Shown: piece by piece, positions 23,050-40,102 of the stretch | How the letters are laid out: every line of letters begins with the position of its first letter | How positions within the stretch are numbered: the first letter of the stretch is position 1 | DNA from: an uncultured Collinsella sp. | Lineage (GTDB): Bacteria > Actinomycetota > Coriobacteriia > Coriobacteriales > Coriobacteriaceae | NCBI GenBank assembly: GCA_934654795.1 | Contig: CAKUGT010000014.1 | Span: 1 to 40,219 of the forward strand | DNA length: 40,219 bases | Direction: 5' to 3' | Made by a program: the position numbers and the translations under genes | The notes under the pieces: model-generated | The model's database searches: none | What the model was told of the DNA's origin: nothing | Seen by the model: only the letters and a program-made list of their open reading frames with translations

Positions 23050-26000
23050 CTAGCGCTTGCGGATACCCCAGACCAGGGCTCCGACGCCAGCCATGGCAAT
23101 GACAAATGCCATGAGCAGTGCGGCTGCCTGCTGGTCACCCGTGGTGGGCAGGAAGCCCTTGACCGTCTTGACGATGTTCGTCACGGTCTTGGGCGTACCG
23201 GGGTCGGGCGTCGGCACAGGCGTCTCGGGCTTCTTGTACGTGTTGTTGAACACGATACCCTCGACGCTCTTGTCGCCCTTGGTATAGGCGACGCTCGCCT
23301 TGAGGTTGCCCTCGCCGTCATCGACCACGTTGACGGTCGCGGTGAAGACGGACTTGTCGTAGGTCATGCCGGCCTCGTCGCCCTTGACCTCGCTGATGGC
23401 GTAGACGTACGTTCCAGGCTCGCTGTACTCGAACTTGTCGAAGCTGATCTTGCCGTCGGCATCGTTGGTGACGGTGGACTCGACGTCCTCACCAGCGAGC
23501 TTAAAGCTAAACTCGTCCTTCTTGAGCTCGCGTCCCTCGAGCACCTTGATGGCGCCGATGGAGACCTGAGTGGGCATGGCGTGATACTTGTTGGTAAAGC
23601 CAGCGGACTCGGTGGTTCCCTCGAGCTTGTGCGTCGCGGTCAGCGTGCCGTCGCCGTTGTCGGAGACGGTGGTCACGACGGTGTAGGTCGCGCCGTCATA
23701 GGTGACGCCCTTGTACAGGCCGAGCGCGTTGGGGCAAGCCTCGCGCAGCATGTACGTGTGCGTGCCGGGCGCCTCGTAGCGGATCGGGCTCAGTGTCACG
23801 GTGCCGTTGGCGTCGTTGGCGCCGCTCGCGACAACCACGCCGTCCTCGAGCAGATCAAACGTGAACTCGCCTGCTGCAAGGTCGCGTCCGGTCAGACGCT
23901 TGACCGTCTTGACCTGGTCGGTCACCACAGAATCGGTAGGCGTCACGCTGTAGGTGTTAGTGAACGTGAAGGCTGCGCCGTCGTCGCCTTCGCGCACGAC
24001 CTTCAGATGTCCGGCGCCGTCGTCAGTCACGGTGTAGGAAACCTTGCGCGTGGCGTTGGCATCGTTGGTCACGCCAGGAACGCTACCGGACTCGGTCACC
24101 GTGTAGGTAAAGGTGTGCGAGCGCGAAGTAGTGGTGGCAGGCTCGTTCTCGTCCTTGGATTCGTCAGCGTTAACGTCAACGTCGGCCTCGTCGGCCTCTG
24201 CCTCGTCGGCCTCTGCCTCATCAGCATCAGCTTCATCGGCTTCGGTCTCGTCGGTTGCGTCGTCCGTCACGCCCAGGGCGCGGTTGAGGTCCTCGAGCGT
24301 AAAGTGGATCTTGCCAAAGTCCACGTTGCCGGCCGCGTCGTTGGTTGCGGTCGCGTGCTCGGGCATCGGGGCGCCCGCCTCGTCGGCGGCCACGGTAAAG
24401 GTGAACTTACCCGCGATGTCGGCCGGGGTCAGGCCCTCGGCGGCTTGGAGCTTCTTGGTGCCGGCGAGCGCGGCATCAACGGCATCGGTGCCGTAGACGT
24501 TCTCGAACAAGGGCTTAATGCCGTCGTAGACAGGCGTTGCCGTCAGGGTACCGTCGCCGTTATCGACGACAATAACCTTAAAGCTAAAGCTCGGCGTTGC
24601 GGCCGTGATGCCCTTGGCCGCGAGCTGCGGCGTGAACTCAAAGGCGGTGTAACCGATGGTCCACTCAGGCTTGGCATCCGTATCGGTGCGGATGGCGCGC
24701 TTGGCATTTACCAGATTGGCGAGCATCTCGGTGGTGTAATGCAGGGAACCGAAGCGTACATGCTCATTAACGTTGGTAGTGCACGTGCCCTCAATGGCTT
24801 CCTTCTCACCTGCGTAGGCGATGCCAAAGTAGAACTCGCCGTCGGCCATCGGGCGACCGGTCAGGGTCTTGGCGGCAACGACCTGAGCAGCGGCGCCACC
24901 AGTCGTGTTGGTCGTAGCACTGTAGCTGTTGACGAACGGGACCACGGCGCTCTCGACCGCAGCGGCACCAGTCTTGTACTCGGTCACCAGCGTGCCCTCG
25001 GAACCGCCAGAAACGGTCGTCGTGGCGGTGAGCGTACCGGCGGTGTCGTCGGCGATGGCGATCGTCACGGTACGCACGGCGTCGTCGTAGGTGTAACCGG
25101 GCTGGCCGTCATTCTTCTCGGCCACGGTGTACTTGAAGGTCTTGCCGGCGTCAGCCTGCGTAAACTTGACCTCATGGCCAGCCAGGATGTCGATCAGGCC
25201 GACCGTTCCCTCTGCCGTCGCAGGGGACTTGAATTCGTTGGCGACGGGCAGTAGACCAAGCGCGTTGGCCGAAGCCTCGTCGGCGGGCGTCACGGTAAAG
25301 GTAAACTGGCCCTCGGTCATGGGACGTCCGCGGAGGGTCTTGCTGAGCTTGAGGCCGCCGGCCGCGGTGTAGTTAAGCTCAGTGCGGTACGTGTTGGTAA
25401 AGCGTCCGTTTTCCTTCTTGGTGACGTTGGCGGTCAGCTTGCCTTCGCCGTCCTCGGTCACGGTCACTTCGGCGGTCGCGACATGGGCGTCATACGTCAT
25501 GCCAACCGTGCTGCCCGCGTTCTCGCGGATCTCGTACTTGTAGGTTCCAGCAGCCGTGTAGCGAATCTTGCCGAACTTGATGGCGGCGATGCCGTCCTTC
25601 GCGTCGTGCCTGCTCACGGTCACGGTTGCGGGGTCGGGCAGCGGGGTGCCCTCGGGAGCGGTGATGGTAAAGCTGAACTCGTCCCCATCCGTCCACTCGC
25701 GACCGTCGATGGCCTTGCTCAGACCAAAGTCGAGGTCTGCATCGGTCGGGGTCACGCTGTAAGTGTTCTCGAAGGTCGCAGGCTTGTCGCTCTTCAGGAC
25801 ATGCTTTGCCTCGAGCGTGCCGTCGCCCTTGTCGGTGATGGTGGTCTCGATGGTGAACTTGGCGTCGCTGTAGGTGATGCCCTTGCTGGTGGTTCCGCCG
25901 TTGACCTCGCGCAGCGTGTAGGTGTGCTTGCCGGGCTTGTCGTAGGTGATCTTGCCCATCGCGATCTTGCCGTCGGCAGTGTTGGTGCCCTTGGCAACGA

Positions 26001-29000
26001 CCTTGTCGCCCTCGACGAGCTCAAAGCTAAACTCGCCGTCCTTGAGCGTGCGACCGGTCAGAACCTTGGTCGCGGTGATCTGGTCGGTGACACTGAACTC
26101 GTTGGGGTTCGGCTTATAGCTGTTGTTGAACTTCGCCTCGCCGGCTCCCTTCAGCTCATGCGTAGCGTTGAGCGTGCCGTCACCGTTGTCGGTGATGGTC
26201 GTCTCGATGGTGTAGGTCTTGCTGTCGTAAGTGATGCCATTGCCGGCGTCGCCCGGGACCTCGCGCAGCGTGTAGGCGTGCTTGCCGGCCTCGGTGTAGG
26301 TGATCTCGCCCATCGCAATGTTGCCGTCGGCGTCATTGGTACCGGTGGCGACCACGTCGTTGCCCTCGACGAGCTCGAAGGAGAACTCGCCGGCCTTGAG
26401 GTCGCGGCCGGCCAGGACCTTGGTCGCCGCGATCTTGTCGGTGACACTCGACTTGCCAGGATTCGGCTTGTAGGTGTTCTCGAAGATCGCCTTCTCGGCG
26501 TTCTGCAGCTTATGCTCCACGCTGAGGGTACCGTCGCCGTTGTCCGTAACCGTAGTCACGATGGTGTACTCGGCGGTGCTGTAGGTAATGCCGTTCTCGG
26601 TGGCGCCGGCCTTGGCCTCGCGCAGCGTGTAAGTGTGTTCGCCGGCCTCAGTGTACGTGACGGGATCCATCACGATCTTGCCGTCGGCGTTGTTGGTACC
26701 GGTGGCGACGACCTCGTTGTCCTTGACGAGCTCAAAGCGGAACTCGCCGGCCACAAGGCCAAGCTCGCGCCCGGTCAGGACCTTAGTCGCGTTGATCTGG
26801 TCGGTGACGCTGGAGTCCTTGGGGGCCACGGTGTAGGCGTTCACAAACTTGTTGCCGGTATCGCCGTAGACAGCCGTCGCCGTCAGGGTACCATCGCCGT
26901 TGTCGACAACGGTTACATATGCGTCAATTACCGACACGGTGGCGCTCACGCCCGCAGGCAGCCTATCGGTCTGCTCGGCAGCAATGTAGCGAATGGTCCA
27001 CGTGGGCTTGTCTGAGCTATCGTCAAACGACGCCTTGTCTTCCTTGACCAGCTTGGCAAGCGACTCGGTCGTGTACTCCAGCGGACCGAACTCAACCTTG
27101 CCACTCTTGTTGGTTGCGTTCAGCAGGACCTCGTCGTGCCCCGCGTAGCTCAACGTAAACTTGAATTCGCCGTCGGCCATCAGGCGCCCCGTGAGCGTCT
27201 TGGTAGCCTCAAGAGTCAGCGGGGTTTCCGTCTTGGCGCTATAGGTGTTCGTGAACTTAGTCTCACCCGAGGTCTTTTCAACGTCGGCCTTAAGCTCGCC
27301 CTTGGCGTTAACCGTCACAGTCACCTTGAACGTGGCAACGTTATCGCTGTAGGTGATACCGCCCAGCTTGCCCTTGACCTCGCGGACCTCATAAGTGTAC
27401 TCGCCCGGCTTGTTGTAGGTGATCTTGCCGAAGTCGATGGCGGCGACGCCATTGTCGTCCGCATTCTGATTGGTCACGGTTACGGTTGCAGGATCGGGCA
27501 GCGGAGCGTCGTTCTCGGACGTCGCGGAGAGCTCAAACTTAAACTCATCGGTATCCGTCCAGCCGCGGCCTTCGAGCACCTTGGTCAGGCCGAAGTCGGC
27601 CTTGGTATCCACCGTTGCCGGCGTCATGTTGTACGCAAAGCTGATCTTGCCGTTATTGCCCAGGTAGGAGTTGACATGCGTCGCGGTCGCCTTGGCGGAC
27701 GTGTTGTTCCACTTGGGATTGAGAACGTCGGAGGCGGTATGGGTGTTGTTGCCGCCCACGCTCTCCTTAGTGGTGTGGAGCTCATCGATAAAGGCCAGGC
27801 GTGCGGTTCCCACAGTAAACACCAAGTTACCGTTCTCATCGGGAACAATCGCGCCGTCGAACTTCGCGGCGTCGCCGCCGATAAATTCGATGACGTCGGT
27901 GGCGGGCTTGGCCTCGCCGTTCTCGCCCTGCTCCTCAAACTCATCCTTGTAGTAATACTTGCCGTCATCAGCCAGCGAGCCCGTTGCCGGCTTCGTGCAT
28001 TCCTTATCCGTGTAAATGGGCGTCTGCTTCTGGAAGTAGTAGTAGCGGTTGGTGTCGGCCGGCTCAAAGGTCGCAACCGTATCACCCAGCTCGCCGCCGT
28101 TCCACTTGTTCGCGTAGAAATTCACGGTCTTGGTGCGGTCAACGACGGTCGTATTATGCTCGATGTAGTCCTTGAGCCCCGTGACCTTCTCGGGCGTAAA
28201 CAGATTGTCGAGTGCAGCTTTCTTCACGCTCGAGGCGTACTTTACGCGGATAGGCTGAGCGCTGTCGACCGAGAGCTTGCCGTCTTCGTTCTTAAAGTGG
28301 CTCTGCGGAATCAACGATGCAGGGATGCTGACCGTTACGATATCGCCCTTCTGGGGATTGTCCTTGTCAGCACGCTGCACGGTGATGAGCAGGTCTTTTG
28401 CCTTACCGGTGAACTCGTAGGTATCGGTATTGGTTTCTTTGTTGACCATCTTGTTAGGCTTGGTAAACGACGTGCCGTTGATGACGACTTCAGTAAAGCC
28501 GTCGACCTGCATAAAGTCGCCCAGCTCATCGGTAAACGTGATGTAGCCGGACTTGGTCGCGTCGTAGCCCTTATCAATTTTGGTTGGATGGGGCGGCTCC
28601 GACGTAATGGCCTTTGAGATGTCGTCGAAGACCTTCTTGAGCTCATCGGCATTGGTCGCCGACTTGTAGAAGTCGGAGTTCTCCGCGCGCGCACCGTGAG
28701 CATCCCATGCCGTAGCATTGGGATAGTTGCTCGACACGGCCTGCATGAACTTGTTCGCTTTATTCGCTTCGTCTGTTCCTAAATCTTGAATGCCTGCACT
28801 GGGATTCGCTCCGCTAAAGATACCGATGGTATAAACGGTGGCCTTGCCGTCCTTCATGCTCTTGGCAAACTTCACGGCATCGTTGGCAACGCCCGAATCG
28901 AATTTACTTTGCTTTGTTGGCGTACCGTCGGTAAAGAACACAATAATCTTCTTGGCGTCTTCGCGGCCAGAAGTGATGCCCTTAGCCAGCTCCAGACCAT

Positions 29001-29694
29001 TGTCGGCGCGCGTGGCACCGGCAGGTTTGATTCCAGCAATTTTATTCTTGAGATTGGTTGCCTTGCCGCCGGAACAATCGGTCAGGCCCTCCACTACCTG
29101 CGAGTAGTTGTACCAAAATTGCCCCTGCTTGTACTGGTCGTTGCCGATTTTATCGGTCTTATCACCTGCAAACTTGACAATGGCAACCCTATGCTGCCTA
29201 TCGACGCCCTCGATACCTTCGTTTTGTTTGGCGATGGTATCGATAAAGCTATTCGCAGCGTTCTTCAACGCTTCGATACGCTCGGTCTTGTCGCCGCCGC
29301 CCATAGGATCATTCATCGAGCCAGAGGCATCCAGCACCATCACGATGTCAAGCGGCGTGGTAACCGTCACGGTTGAATTGGATGTCGAAGACATAGCCGA
29401 AAGCGTAGTCAAGAAATCCGACTCTTCGTTTTCTCCGGTTGCCTCAACCGTCTTGTCGGTCCAGATTCGGCCGACGTTTTGAGTCGTCACCTTATTGCCG
29501 CTGTGGCCGGCCGCCCATTTTTCCCAGCGTCCGCTGGTGTCGGGGTCGACGACCGTCGGTCCGCTCACTGTCGGTCCGTCCATTCCTGTGCTGGACCTGG
29601 CGTTGGCCTCGGGCAGCATGGCGAATGCTGCGGCTGGCAATACCAGCACTACGGCAAGTATCACCGCCAAGAGACCCCTCGTGTACTTACCCAT
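23050..29694 (-). CDS. Giant LPXTG-anchored VWA adhesin with eleven Spy0128/FctA-like domains
   Basis: A 2214-residue surface protein. Signal peptide 1-33; a VWA domain (about 113-350) with the metal-ion site D122-A-S-G-S126; an unassigned region (about 350-690); eleven tandem beta domains of about 130 residues (about 690-2160); then a sorting signal LPTTGD, a hydrophobic helix and a GIRKR tail for sortase. Each beta domain repeats the same three marks: a Lys in a K-x-L-x-GR motif, a Glu in Y-x-x-RE or equivalent, and an Asn in (F)xNxY. These are the trio that forms the internal Lys-Asn isopeptide bond in Spy0128/FctA pilin domains. The ninth carries an acidic insert of short A-E/D-A-D-E repeats. 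A role in attachment to host or other surfaces is inferred. No sortase is in the window. The ATG at 29694 follows AAGGGAG. Confidence 0.92.
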   Translation of the reverse strand: MGKYTRGLLAVILAVVLVLPAAAFAMLPEANARSSTGMDGPTVSGPTVVDPDTSGRWEKWAAGHSGNKVTTQNVGRIWTDKTVEATGENEESDFLTTLSAMSSTSNSTVTVTTPLDIVMVLDASGSMNDPMGGGDKTERIEALKNAANSFIDTIAKQNEGIEGVDRQHRVAIVKFAGDKTDKIGNDQYKQGQFWYNYSQVVEGLTDCSGGKATNLKNKIAGIKPAGATRADNGLELAKGITSGREDAKKIIVFFTDGTPTKQSKFDSGVANDAVKFAKSMKDGKATVYTIGIFSGANPSAGIQDLGTDEANKANKFMQAVSSNYPNATAWDAHGARAENSDFYKSATNADELKKVFDDISKAITSEPPHPTKIDKGYDATKSGYITFTDELGDFMQVDGFTEVVINGTSFTKPNKMVNKETNTDTYEFTGKAKDLLITVQRADKDNPQKGDIVTVSIPASLIPQSHFKNEDGKLSVDSAQPIRVKYASSVKKAALDNLFTPEKVTGLKDYIEHNTTVVDRTKTVNFYANKWNGGELGDTVATFEPADTNRYYYFQKQTPIYTDKECTKPATGSLADDGKYYYKDEFEEQGENGEAKPATDVIEFIGGDAAKFDGAIVPDENGNLVFTVGTARLAFIDELHTTKESVGGNNTHTASDVLNPKWNNTSAKATATHVNSYLGNNGKISFAYNMTPATVDTKADFGLTKVLEGRGWTDTDEFKFELSATSENDAPLPDPATVTVTNQNADDNGVAAIDFGKITYNKPGEYTYEVREVKGKLGGITYSDNVATFKVTVTVNAKGELKADVEKTSGETKFTNTYSAKTETPLTLEATKTLTGRLMADGEFKFTLSYAGHDEVLLNATNKSGKVEFGPLEYTTESLAKLVKEDKASFDDSSDKPTWTIRYIAAEQTDRLPAGVSATVSVIDAYVTVVDNGDGTLTATAVYGDTGNKFVNAYTVAPKDSSVTDQINATKVLTGRELGLVAGEFRFELVKDNEVVATGTNNADGKIVMDPVTYTEAGEHTYTLREAKAGATENGITYSTAEYTIVTTVTDNGDGTLSVEHKLQNAEKAIFENTYKPNPGKSSVTDKIAATKVLAGRDLKAGEFSFELVEGNDVVATGTNDADGNIAMGEITYTEAGKHAYTLREVPGDAGNGITYDSKTYTIETTITDNGDGTLNATHELKGAGEAKFNNSYKPNPNEFSVTDQITATKVLTGRTLKDGEFSFELVEGDKVVAKGTNTADGKIAMGKITYDKPGKHTYTLREVNGGTTSKGITYSDAKFTIETTITDKGDGTLEAKHVLKSDKPATFENTYSVTPTDADLDFGLSKAIDGREWTDGDEFSFTITAPEGTPLPDPATVTVSRHDAKDGIAAIKFGKIRYTAAGTYKYEIRENAGSTVGMTYDAHVATAEVTVTEDGEGKLTANVTKKENGRFTNTYRTELNYTAAGGLKLSKTLRGRPMTEGQFTFTVTPADEASANALGLLPVANEFKSPATAEGTVGLIDILAGHEVKFTQADAGKTFKYTVAEKNDGQPGYTYDDAVRTVTIAIADDTAGTLTATTTVSGGSEGTLVTEYKTGAAAVESAVVPFVNSYSATTNTTGGAAAQVVAAKTLTGRPMADGEFYFGIAYAGEKEAIEGTCTTNVNEHVRFGSLHYTTEMLANLVNAKRAIRTDTDAKPEWTIGYTAFEFTPQLAAKGITAATPSFSFKVIVVDNGDGTLTATPVYDGIKPLFENVYGTDAVDAALAGTKKLQAAEGLTPADIAGKFTFTVAADEAGAPMPEHATATNDAAGNVDFGKIHFTLEDLNRALGVTDDATDETEADEADADEAEADEAEADEADVDVNADESKDENEPATTTSRSHTFTYTVTESGSVPGVTNDANATRKVSYTVTDDGAGHLKVVREGDDGAAFTFTNTYSVTPTDSVVTDQVKTVKRLTGRDLAAGEFTFDLLEDGVVVASGANDANGTVTLSPIRYEAPGTHTYMLREACPNALGLYKGVTYDGATYTVVTTVSDNGDGTLTATHKLEGTTESAGFTNKYHAMPTQVSIGAIKVLEGRELKKDEFSFKLAGEDVESTVTNDADGKISFDKFEYSEPGTYVYAISEVKGDEAGMTYDKSVFTATVNVVDDGEGNLKASVAYTKGDKSVEGIVFNNTYKKPETPVPTPDPGTPKTVTNIVKTVKGFLPTTGDQQAAALLMAFVIAMAGVGALVWGIRKR

Positions 29695-39139: not shown

Positions 39140-39441
39140 GTCTCAATCTGTAACATCTACTCAGCAAAATAAGGTCTAACTGTTACAGATCGAGACAAAC
39201 TAATTCGGTCCGACCAAACATCTCAATCTGTAACACCTAGACCGACTTTTGACCTCCACCTGTTACAGATCGAGACAAACCAAACCCGGACTGCCGGAAA
39301 ATCTCGATCTGTAACAGTAACTCGGCAAAATCCGTCCCTCGTGTTACAGATCGAGACAAACAGAACCATCCCACCGAAACGTCTCAATCTGTAACAATTA
39401 ATCGTCCAAATCGGGTCTAGGTGTTACAGATTGAGATTTTG
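39140..39441. repeat. Tandem hairpin array, cluster 1 (four units)
   Basis: Four units of consensus TCTCAATCTGTAACA, 25 bases, TGTTACAGATYGAGA. The left arms start at 39141, 39221, 39302 and 39382, a period of 80-81. The loop is exactly 25 bases every time and shares a CAAAAT-like centre. Linkers of about 25 bases mostly begin with CAAAC and end in GAAA or similar. Position 5 of the arm varies between A and G. Arms 3 and 4 keep perfect pairing with a G-C or an A-T there, while 1 and 2 pair as G-U only on the minus strand. Confidence 0.9.
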
Positions 39442-39563
39442 ATCTGAGGGGTTGAGGGCTGGGCCGGGGGACACCGGACGGAGTCGCGGACGAACCGGTA
39501 ACCCGGCCCCGATCCCTCACCGGGGCCGCATCACAGTGTCCCGAGTGCCGGACAGCCCCTCAA

Positions 39564-39640
39564 TTCCGGACATTCAAGTCTCTTTCCGGACATTTTTGGC
39601 CCCTTTCCGGACATTGTCCGCGAATGTCCGGAAAGGGGCC
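39564..39640. repeat. TTCCGGACATT site cluster with 18-bp palindrome
   Basis: TTCCGGACATT occurs at 39564, 39584 and 39605 (20 and 21 bp apart, two helical turns) and inverted at 39623-39633. The last direct and the inverted copy form an 18-bp perfect palindrome (39598-39615 and 39623-39640) around GTCCGCG. Partial copies (GTGCCGGACAG, GTGTCCGGAAC) flank it. Confidence 0.8.
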
Positions 39641-39680
39641 ATCGTGTCCGGAACGAGGCTCGGTCAGCGATGGCCCCCTG

Positions 39681-39726
39681 GTTCCCTAGTAAAAGTTCCT
39701 CAGTTCCGCAGTAAAGTTCCCTAGTA
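39681..39726. repeat. GTTCCNNAGTA direct repeats
   Basis: GTTCCCTAGTAAAA, GTTCCTCA, GTTCCGCAGTAAA and GTTCCCTAGTA follow each other within 46 bases. They form a third repeat type between the two hairpin clusters, coding for nothing visible. Confidence 0.65.
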
Positions 39727-39801
39727 TCCACCTCAGTGACAGGCGCCAGTTTGAATTCGCGAGTCGCCCTCTTCGCACAACGGGGCCGGCCTGCCGAAAT
39801 G

Positions 39802-40102
39802 TCTCGATCTGTAACATCTAGACCTACTTTTGGGCTCCAACTGTTACAGAACTAGACATTCAAAATCGGTCTGCCGGAAAATCTCAATCTGTAACAGTAA
39901 CTCGGCAAAATCCGTCCCTCGTGTTACAGATTGAGACAAACCAAACCATCCCGCTGGATAATCTTGATCTGTAACAGTAACTCAGCCAAATCCACCCCTC
40001 GTGTTACAGATTTAGACAAACGGAGGTCGTCCCGCCGAAATATCTCAATCTGTAACAGTTAGCCGCCCAAATCGAGTCCAGGTGTTACAGATTGAGATTT
40101 TG
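39802..40102. repeat. Tandem hairpin array, cluster 2 (four units)
   Basis: Units start at 39802, 39882, 39962 and 40043 with the same 15-25-15 plan and an 80-81 period. Unit 6 has the same 25-base loop as unit 3 of cluster 1, unit 5 resembles unit 2, and unit 8 resembles unit 4. Both clusters are preceded by CGGGGCCGGC (39121 and 39781). Cluster 2 is therefore a 660-bp-shifted partial duplicate of cluster 1. Arms of units 5 and 7 are partly broken (GAACTAGA, GATTTAGA); units 6 and 8 are perfect. The gap 39004-39139 before the first cluster has no feature. Confidence 0.9.

Follow-up and report, generated by a model that had tools for sequence, protein, structure and literature searches.

Intergenic arrays of paired inverted repeats in gut Collinsella appear to evolve like sites for a putative DNA-binding protein

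The array of inverted repeats in the 40,219-nt stretch of Collinsella DNA analysed here (the window) is one of a dispersed family of short arrays found in the spaces between ordinary genes of one group of gut Collinsella. These arrays have a near-constant geometry, 13 positions of the arm are under strong constraint, arm positions 4-5 do not covary, and the placement is intergenic. Our best reading of these sequences is that the arrays evolve in the manner of sites for a putative DNA-binding protein, and not as folded RNA hairpins would.

At the window locus there are eight inverted repeats of 55 nt, each with 15-nt arms around a 25-nt loop, in two clusters of four at 39141-39436 and 39802-40097 (Table 1). 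An earlier, sequence-only reading had described eight units in two sets of four, and all of them are present, within a few bases of the bounds it gave (39140-40102); the exact 25-base loop (8/8 units) and the 80-81 bp spacing of units within a cluster were also borne out. The linkers are nearly as regular as the loops, at 25, 26 and 25 nt in the first cluster and 25, 25 and 26 nt in the second. Because the linkers too are 25-26 nt long, successive copies of the motif TCTCRATCTGTAACA lie 40-41 bp apart and alternate in orientation, giving a basic period of about 40 bp. The arms are perfectly complementary in four of the eight units, and the two clusters are homologous (77% identity over 342 bp). 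A search for the arm TCTCAATCTGTAACA with at most 3 mismatches gave 16 matches in 39141-40097 and a single one in the rest of the window; shuffles of the whole window averaged 0.34 and reached at most 2.

Table 1. Units of the window array and neighbouring features
Feature	Position	Strand	Description
Unit 1	39141..39195		arms 39141-39155 and 39181-39195; loop 25; arm mismatches: 1
Unit 2	39221..39275		loop 25; preceding linker 25; arm mismatches: 1
Unit 3	39302..39356		loop 25; preceding linker 26; arms perfectly complementary
Unit 4	39382..39436		loop 25; preceding linker 25; arms perfectly complementary
Inter-cluster spacer	39437..39801		carries TCCGGACATT inverted repeats and repeats of GTTCCCTAGT
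Unit 5	39802..39856		loop 25; arm mismatches: 2
Unit 6	39882..39936		loop 25; preceding linker 25; arms perfectly complementary
Unit 7	39962..40016		loop 25; preceding linker 25; arm mismatches: 2
Unit 8	40043..40097		loop 25; preceding linker 26; arms perfectly complementary
NADH:flavin oxidoreductase gene, 678 aa	36967..39003	-	PF00724 and PF07992; start 137 bp from array

The distance from the oxidoreductase gene to the array is 136-148 bp in 20 relatives, and a tRNA-Met lies on the opposite side of the array in three of the four related loci scanned (two carriers and the genome G041). Among the non-viral loci examined, the spacer between the clusters has partial matches at only two other places (L087, and L304, which is the same place as L053), and its two repeated strings each occur in only two others of these loci. 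Elsewhere in the window, the minus strand at 23050-29694 encodes a surface-type protein of 2214 aa in which a VWA domain accompanies 11 FctA (Spy0128-like isopeptide) stretches, and a tandem repeat with a 354-bp period lies within its DNA (25813-26752).

The sequence-only reading had implied that the array was unique, and a structure confined to the window locus is ruled out by the many arm matches in relatives. In the nearest genome, G001, there were 103 arm matches at no more than 2 mismatches, compared with none for the reversed control, and its loci form 18 distinct arrays of 2-5 units each. The exact pair of inner arms (ATCTGTAACA, 25 bases, TGTTACAGAT) was found in 23 of 65 genomes of the family, all of one genus: 22 of the 43 genomes of that genus hold 17-43 pairs each and G041 holds one, and none was found in the 22 family genomes of other genera. 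When up to 2 mismatches were allowed in 296 genomes of the class, 22 matched, all of the same genus, 20 of them with 38-65 units and G021 and G041 with one each. A two-unit pattern occurred in at least 120 stretches of named GTDB genomes, and among the matches listed 80 of 80 were Collinsella, many named C. aerofaciens. Degenerate arrays were also sought in eight non-carriers, which gave 0-2 matches each where the reversed control gave 0-3; the matches include one true unit each in G021, G041 and G042. Within the genomes searched, the arrays thus occur in a single group of Collinsella, and outside it only as one unit in each of those three genomes.

In a clpB tree, the six sampled carriers form one group with the clpB of G042 as its sister, and G042 is 90-92% identical to the carriers near clpB but only 77% near gltB. 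The one-unit stretch upstream of clpB in G042 (L305/L270) is 98% identical to that in a different Collinsella genome, G021 (L301), and this identity makes horizontal transfer of the piece likely. The right arm of the unit in this stretch is altered, perhaps through relaxed selection after transfer. Lone half-sites, apparently truncated units, adjoin single units at two other loci (L073, after 11296; L077, before 6101).

Phage and plasmid origins were considered and rejected. No match was found in the phage collection, and among 42 viral-contig stretches with the short core only one (L114) has true units, within DNA that shares 88-92% identity with chromosomal loci. The sole record from the plasmid collection is a 0.9 Mb C. 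aerofaciens record with recA, ftsK and gltB. This record (NZ_OY725717.1, PLSDB "plasmid 6", 899,693 bp; L322, L323) also carries scpB and looks chromosomal.

The geometry holds across the family. In 208 distinct arrays of 1-8 units, many of them orthologues, the loop is 25 nt in 586 of 592 units and 26 nt in the other six, a count in which loops of 24-26 nt were allowed and many loci had been retrieved by a pattern that fixes a 25-nt gap; the linkers are 25 or 26 nt in 378/384. With loops of 15-35 nt allowed, 581 of 591 were 25 nt, and four were overlapping 31-nt readings. A fair test used loci retrieved without a fixed gap, by arms alone in G001 and by the flanking protein in relatives of the window locus, with loops of 10-60 nt allowed. 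In G001, 48 of 49 loops were 25 nt and one was 26 nt, and all 31 linkers were 25 or 26 nt; in the relatives, 70 of 74 loops were 25 nt and four were 26 nt, and all 54 linkers were 25 or 26 nt. The consensus of 186 hairpins has arms TCTCRATCTGTAACA and a loop of 25, and outside the outermost arms conservation falls off steeply beyond 4 bp. Peaks of A/T at about 0, 10, 21-22 and 30-31 bp from the unit centre hint at phased bending, but the fixed A/T positions 13, 15-17, 19, 25 and 27 from the centre are out of step with that phase, which counts against it.

We compared rates of change at the window locus among 21 sequences, of which 20 come from relatives and one is the window itself (L089 was dropped, the array apparently lying past the end of its contig). 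Pairwise differences at the 13 fixed arm positions were 0.0245 in the distal unit (21 sequences) and 0.0045 in the proximal unit (17 sequences, the four with 26-nt loops being dropped). The corresponding values at codon positions 1, 2 and 3 were 0.010, 0.002 and 0.1045, so that third codon positions change 4-23 times faster than the fixed arm positions. There is free variation at arm positions 4-5 (0.22-0.24), and the loops (0.24-0.27) change faster than third codon positions, probably through exchange and through gain and loss of units. The neutral yardstick is uneven, because the 60 bp beyond the distal array end (0.246, window left out) match the loops in rate and exceed the gene-side flank (0.099). 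A similar difference was seen in 47 loop clusters of at least four members (0.024 at fixed arm positions, 0.16 at loop positions 6-11). The 13 positions are unchanged in 915 of the 1084 half-sites, and no half-site departs from them by more than 3 changes, which is inside the detection limit; detection bias therefore does not explain the conservation of the arms.

The pairing of the arms bears on whether the arrays might work in transcripts as RNA hairpins, in termination, stability or as RNase III sites. We tested covariation in 149 loop-cluster founders at arm positions 4-6 and at 12 loop positions. At arm positions 4 and 5, the ones that vary much, the two arms behaved independently (99 same, 97.9 expected; 77 same, 74.0 expected), and position 6 was weakly positive (137 against 134.5, p=0.03). 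The sequence-only reading had described an arm position that switches between A-T and G-C while pairing is kept in several units; this A/G position, arm position 5, is paired in five of the eight window units, about the expectation for independent arms. In all 542 hairpins, a set that counts orthologues many times, weak associations appeared at position 5 (293 against 269.2, p=0.02) and position 6 (513 against 506.9, p=0.0006). These positive signals oppose a protein-site reading, but they are small. Complementarity was below chance at loop positions 1, 2, 8, 10 and 12 of the founders (23 against 45.3, 39 against 53.1, 30 against 50.8, 27 against 44.8 and 26 against 67.8), at position 12 because an A- or T-run crosses the centre, and pairing at the other seven was not significant in either direction. 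The first cluster scores much better than shuffles when folded as RNA (z -15), but any inverted repeat folds well, and the predicted fold forms units 1 and 3 while it joins unit 2 to unit 4 instead of making four independent hairpins. No known RNA family was matched in the window at the Rfam gathering score, the best sub-threshold match on a unit being a microRNA model at 25.3 bits where the gathering score is 80. From the independent arm positions, the sub-chance loop pairing and the non-independent fold, we conclude that the folded form is not the thing selected. Hairpins acting in transcripts are also at odds with the occurrence of arrays in every gene orientation, and we regard them as a very improbable explanation. 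The sequence-only reading had suggested selection for a folded or protein-bound form. Its protein-bound half gains indirect support from the conservation of the arms at a fixed locus and the near-constant spacing over 208 distinct arrays, and its folded half is not supported by the pairing tests.

The arrays may instead be double-stranded DNA platforms of paired sites for a candidate sequence-specific DNA-binding protein, a proposal to which we give about an even chance. Such a protein would read a half-site made of one arm and its flanks, about WWTR-TCTCRATCTGTAACA-NYTAG, and two inverted half-sites 25 bp apart over an A/T-rich centre would bind one symmetric protein unit. On arrays of one to eight palindromes at 80-81 bp, neighbouring complexes would cooperate, and the protein would stack along the array; the linker between units would accept 25 or 26 bp and the loop almost only 25. 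Such a symmetric, stacking protein would fit a long base-constrained half-site, a strict 25-bp gap within pairs and a linker between pairs that is a little less strict (25/26 bp). We infer from the sequence patterns that a protein binds the arrays, presumably as a dimer or oligomer. No binding protein was found in this analysis.

By simple ORF calling, 155 of 159 distinct arrays are intergenic (no overlap of more than 30% with called genes) where genes cover 84%. No function dominates among 29 neighbour proteins examined in the genome G006, which include ClpB, glutamate synthase, Nramp, aconitase, release factor 3, DXP synthase, phosphorylase and PTS proteins. Because the neighbouring genes share no evident function, a general role in chromosome organisation, or in insulation or topology between genes, would seem to fit better than one regulon. 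A bias towards the origin or terminus looked suggestive by eye, but none that was significant relative to dnaA was seen, and a role directed at either is not supported: the largest array-free arc was not above chance in three genomes with 15-22 listed array loci each (P=0.25, 0.30 and 0.46); loci within 30 kb were merged, the array lists of G006 and G007 were incomplete, and for G028 the origin was placed by synteny and the length rounded. Another dispersed repeat, a terminator-like hairpin (CCACCACAAAGGTGCC...CCTTTGTGGTGG), adjoins several arrays and flanks some on both sides (L064, L066, L075, L076, L078, L079, L080); its 13-base string CCACAAAGGTGCC has 81 matches in 57 of the non-viral loci examined.

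Two further explanations have to be weighed against a protein platform. The arrays could be operators of a single transcription factor with a scattered regulon. The sites are long, conserved and palindromic, and there is usually room for a promoter, the median distance being 138 bp to gene starts (5th percentile -18, with rough ORF calling) and 58 bp to gene ends; LacI, GntR and DeoR regulators, moreover, appear twice each among the 29 neighbours. However, of the 150 arrays with both neighbours scored, 51 have convergent neighbours, a setting where one would not expect a promoter (39 are divergent and 60 tandem), and the other neighbours, ClpB through phosphorylase, are unrelated, so that we consider a regulon improbable.

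A stronger contender, although still an unlikely one, is a BIME/REP-like or MITE-like mobile repeat, a palindrome copied by a transposase in trans that has no host function. Such a repeat would account for arrays that are dispersed, multicopy, intergenic, variable in copy number and alternating in orientation, and Y1 transposase genes occur in all 22 carriers; they occur as well, however, in 15 of 21 other genomes of the genus. Among listed Y1 matches compared by eye with listed arrays, no unit-flanked Y1 tyrosine transposase of the kind expected from a REP/RAYT system was seen. In G006, G007 and G028 the nearest such match is at least 36 kb from an array, but both G012 and strain TSDC17.2 have an IS200-type copy only 1.6-1.7 kb from one. 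IS3 and IS110 transposase genes, one each, are near two G006 arrays. One locus has an array in G006 and none in G007, as insertion would produce, but there the array is bracketed by two copies of a different hairpin repeat, and its loss through recombination between them accounts for the difference without any insertion. In G021, G041 and G042 the unit has stayed single, and inert copies would not be expected to conserve their arms at fixed loci while loops and arm positions 4-5 change. A dispersed REP family with random copy number and unconserved loop length had been named as a finding that would speak against selection; the arrays are indeed dispersed and variable in copy number, but their loop length is conserved.

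Among known systems, the matS/MatP, NBS/Noc and SBS/SlmA systems use mostly single short sites with an origin or terminus bias. The Collinsella repeats resemble them in the scatter of some tens of short conserved sites round one chromosome, which in those systems have one protein reader, but differ in being arrays of long half-sites for which no positional bias was detected. BOX repeats of streptococci are intergenic and modular (A/B/C), with a variable number of the middle unit; the Collinsella arrays are likewise intergenic and modular with a variable number of the unit, but lack A/B/C modules and use a single palindromic unit throughout. Integron attC sites have the motif GTTRRRY, which the arm does not fit. 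The layout is BIME-like: BIMEs and REPs are described, in the parts of PMC2817692 used here, as protein binding sites with suggested roles in chromosome organisation and termination, and the Collinsella arrays share with them dispersed, intergenic, multicopy palindromes with regular spacing and alternating orientation. As defined there, however, a REP has a GT(A/G)G head and, after it, a GC-rich palindrome with a break of 2-4 bases, and the consensus of 186 hairpins has neither, its arms being 15 nt and its loops 25 nt. Nor is pairing preserved by complementary changes at arm positions 4-5, position 6 being the weakly positive exception noted above. For both reasons we do not file the arrays as REPs or BIMEs.

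A literature search, judged by titles and abstract openings and with the supplementary tables of PMC8040213 outside its scope, gave no paper pointing to these repeats. That paper, in the part seen, describes 250 palindromic candidate RNAs from human microbiomes, 20 of them not terminator-like, and one of these could be the Collinsella unit.

Taken together, each of the three mapped genomes has 15-22 listed, precisely spaced and conserved non-coding array loci, for which our searches gave no name. Collinsella aerofaciens is a common human gut bacterium. As a tentative and rather doubtful extension of the platform proposal, these loci may belong to a lineage-specific chromosome-organising system of the C. 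aerofaciens group, in which an oligomeric protein would read paired half-sites of 20-24 bp, bend the A/T centre and stack on 1-8 palindromes at some twenty nodes between genes. With a site of this length and specificity, a single pull-down could identify the binding protein, and the set of arrays lets protein-site and hairpin explanations of BIME-like repeats be compared.
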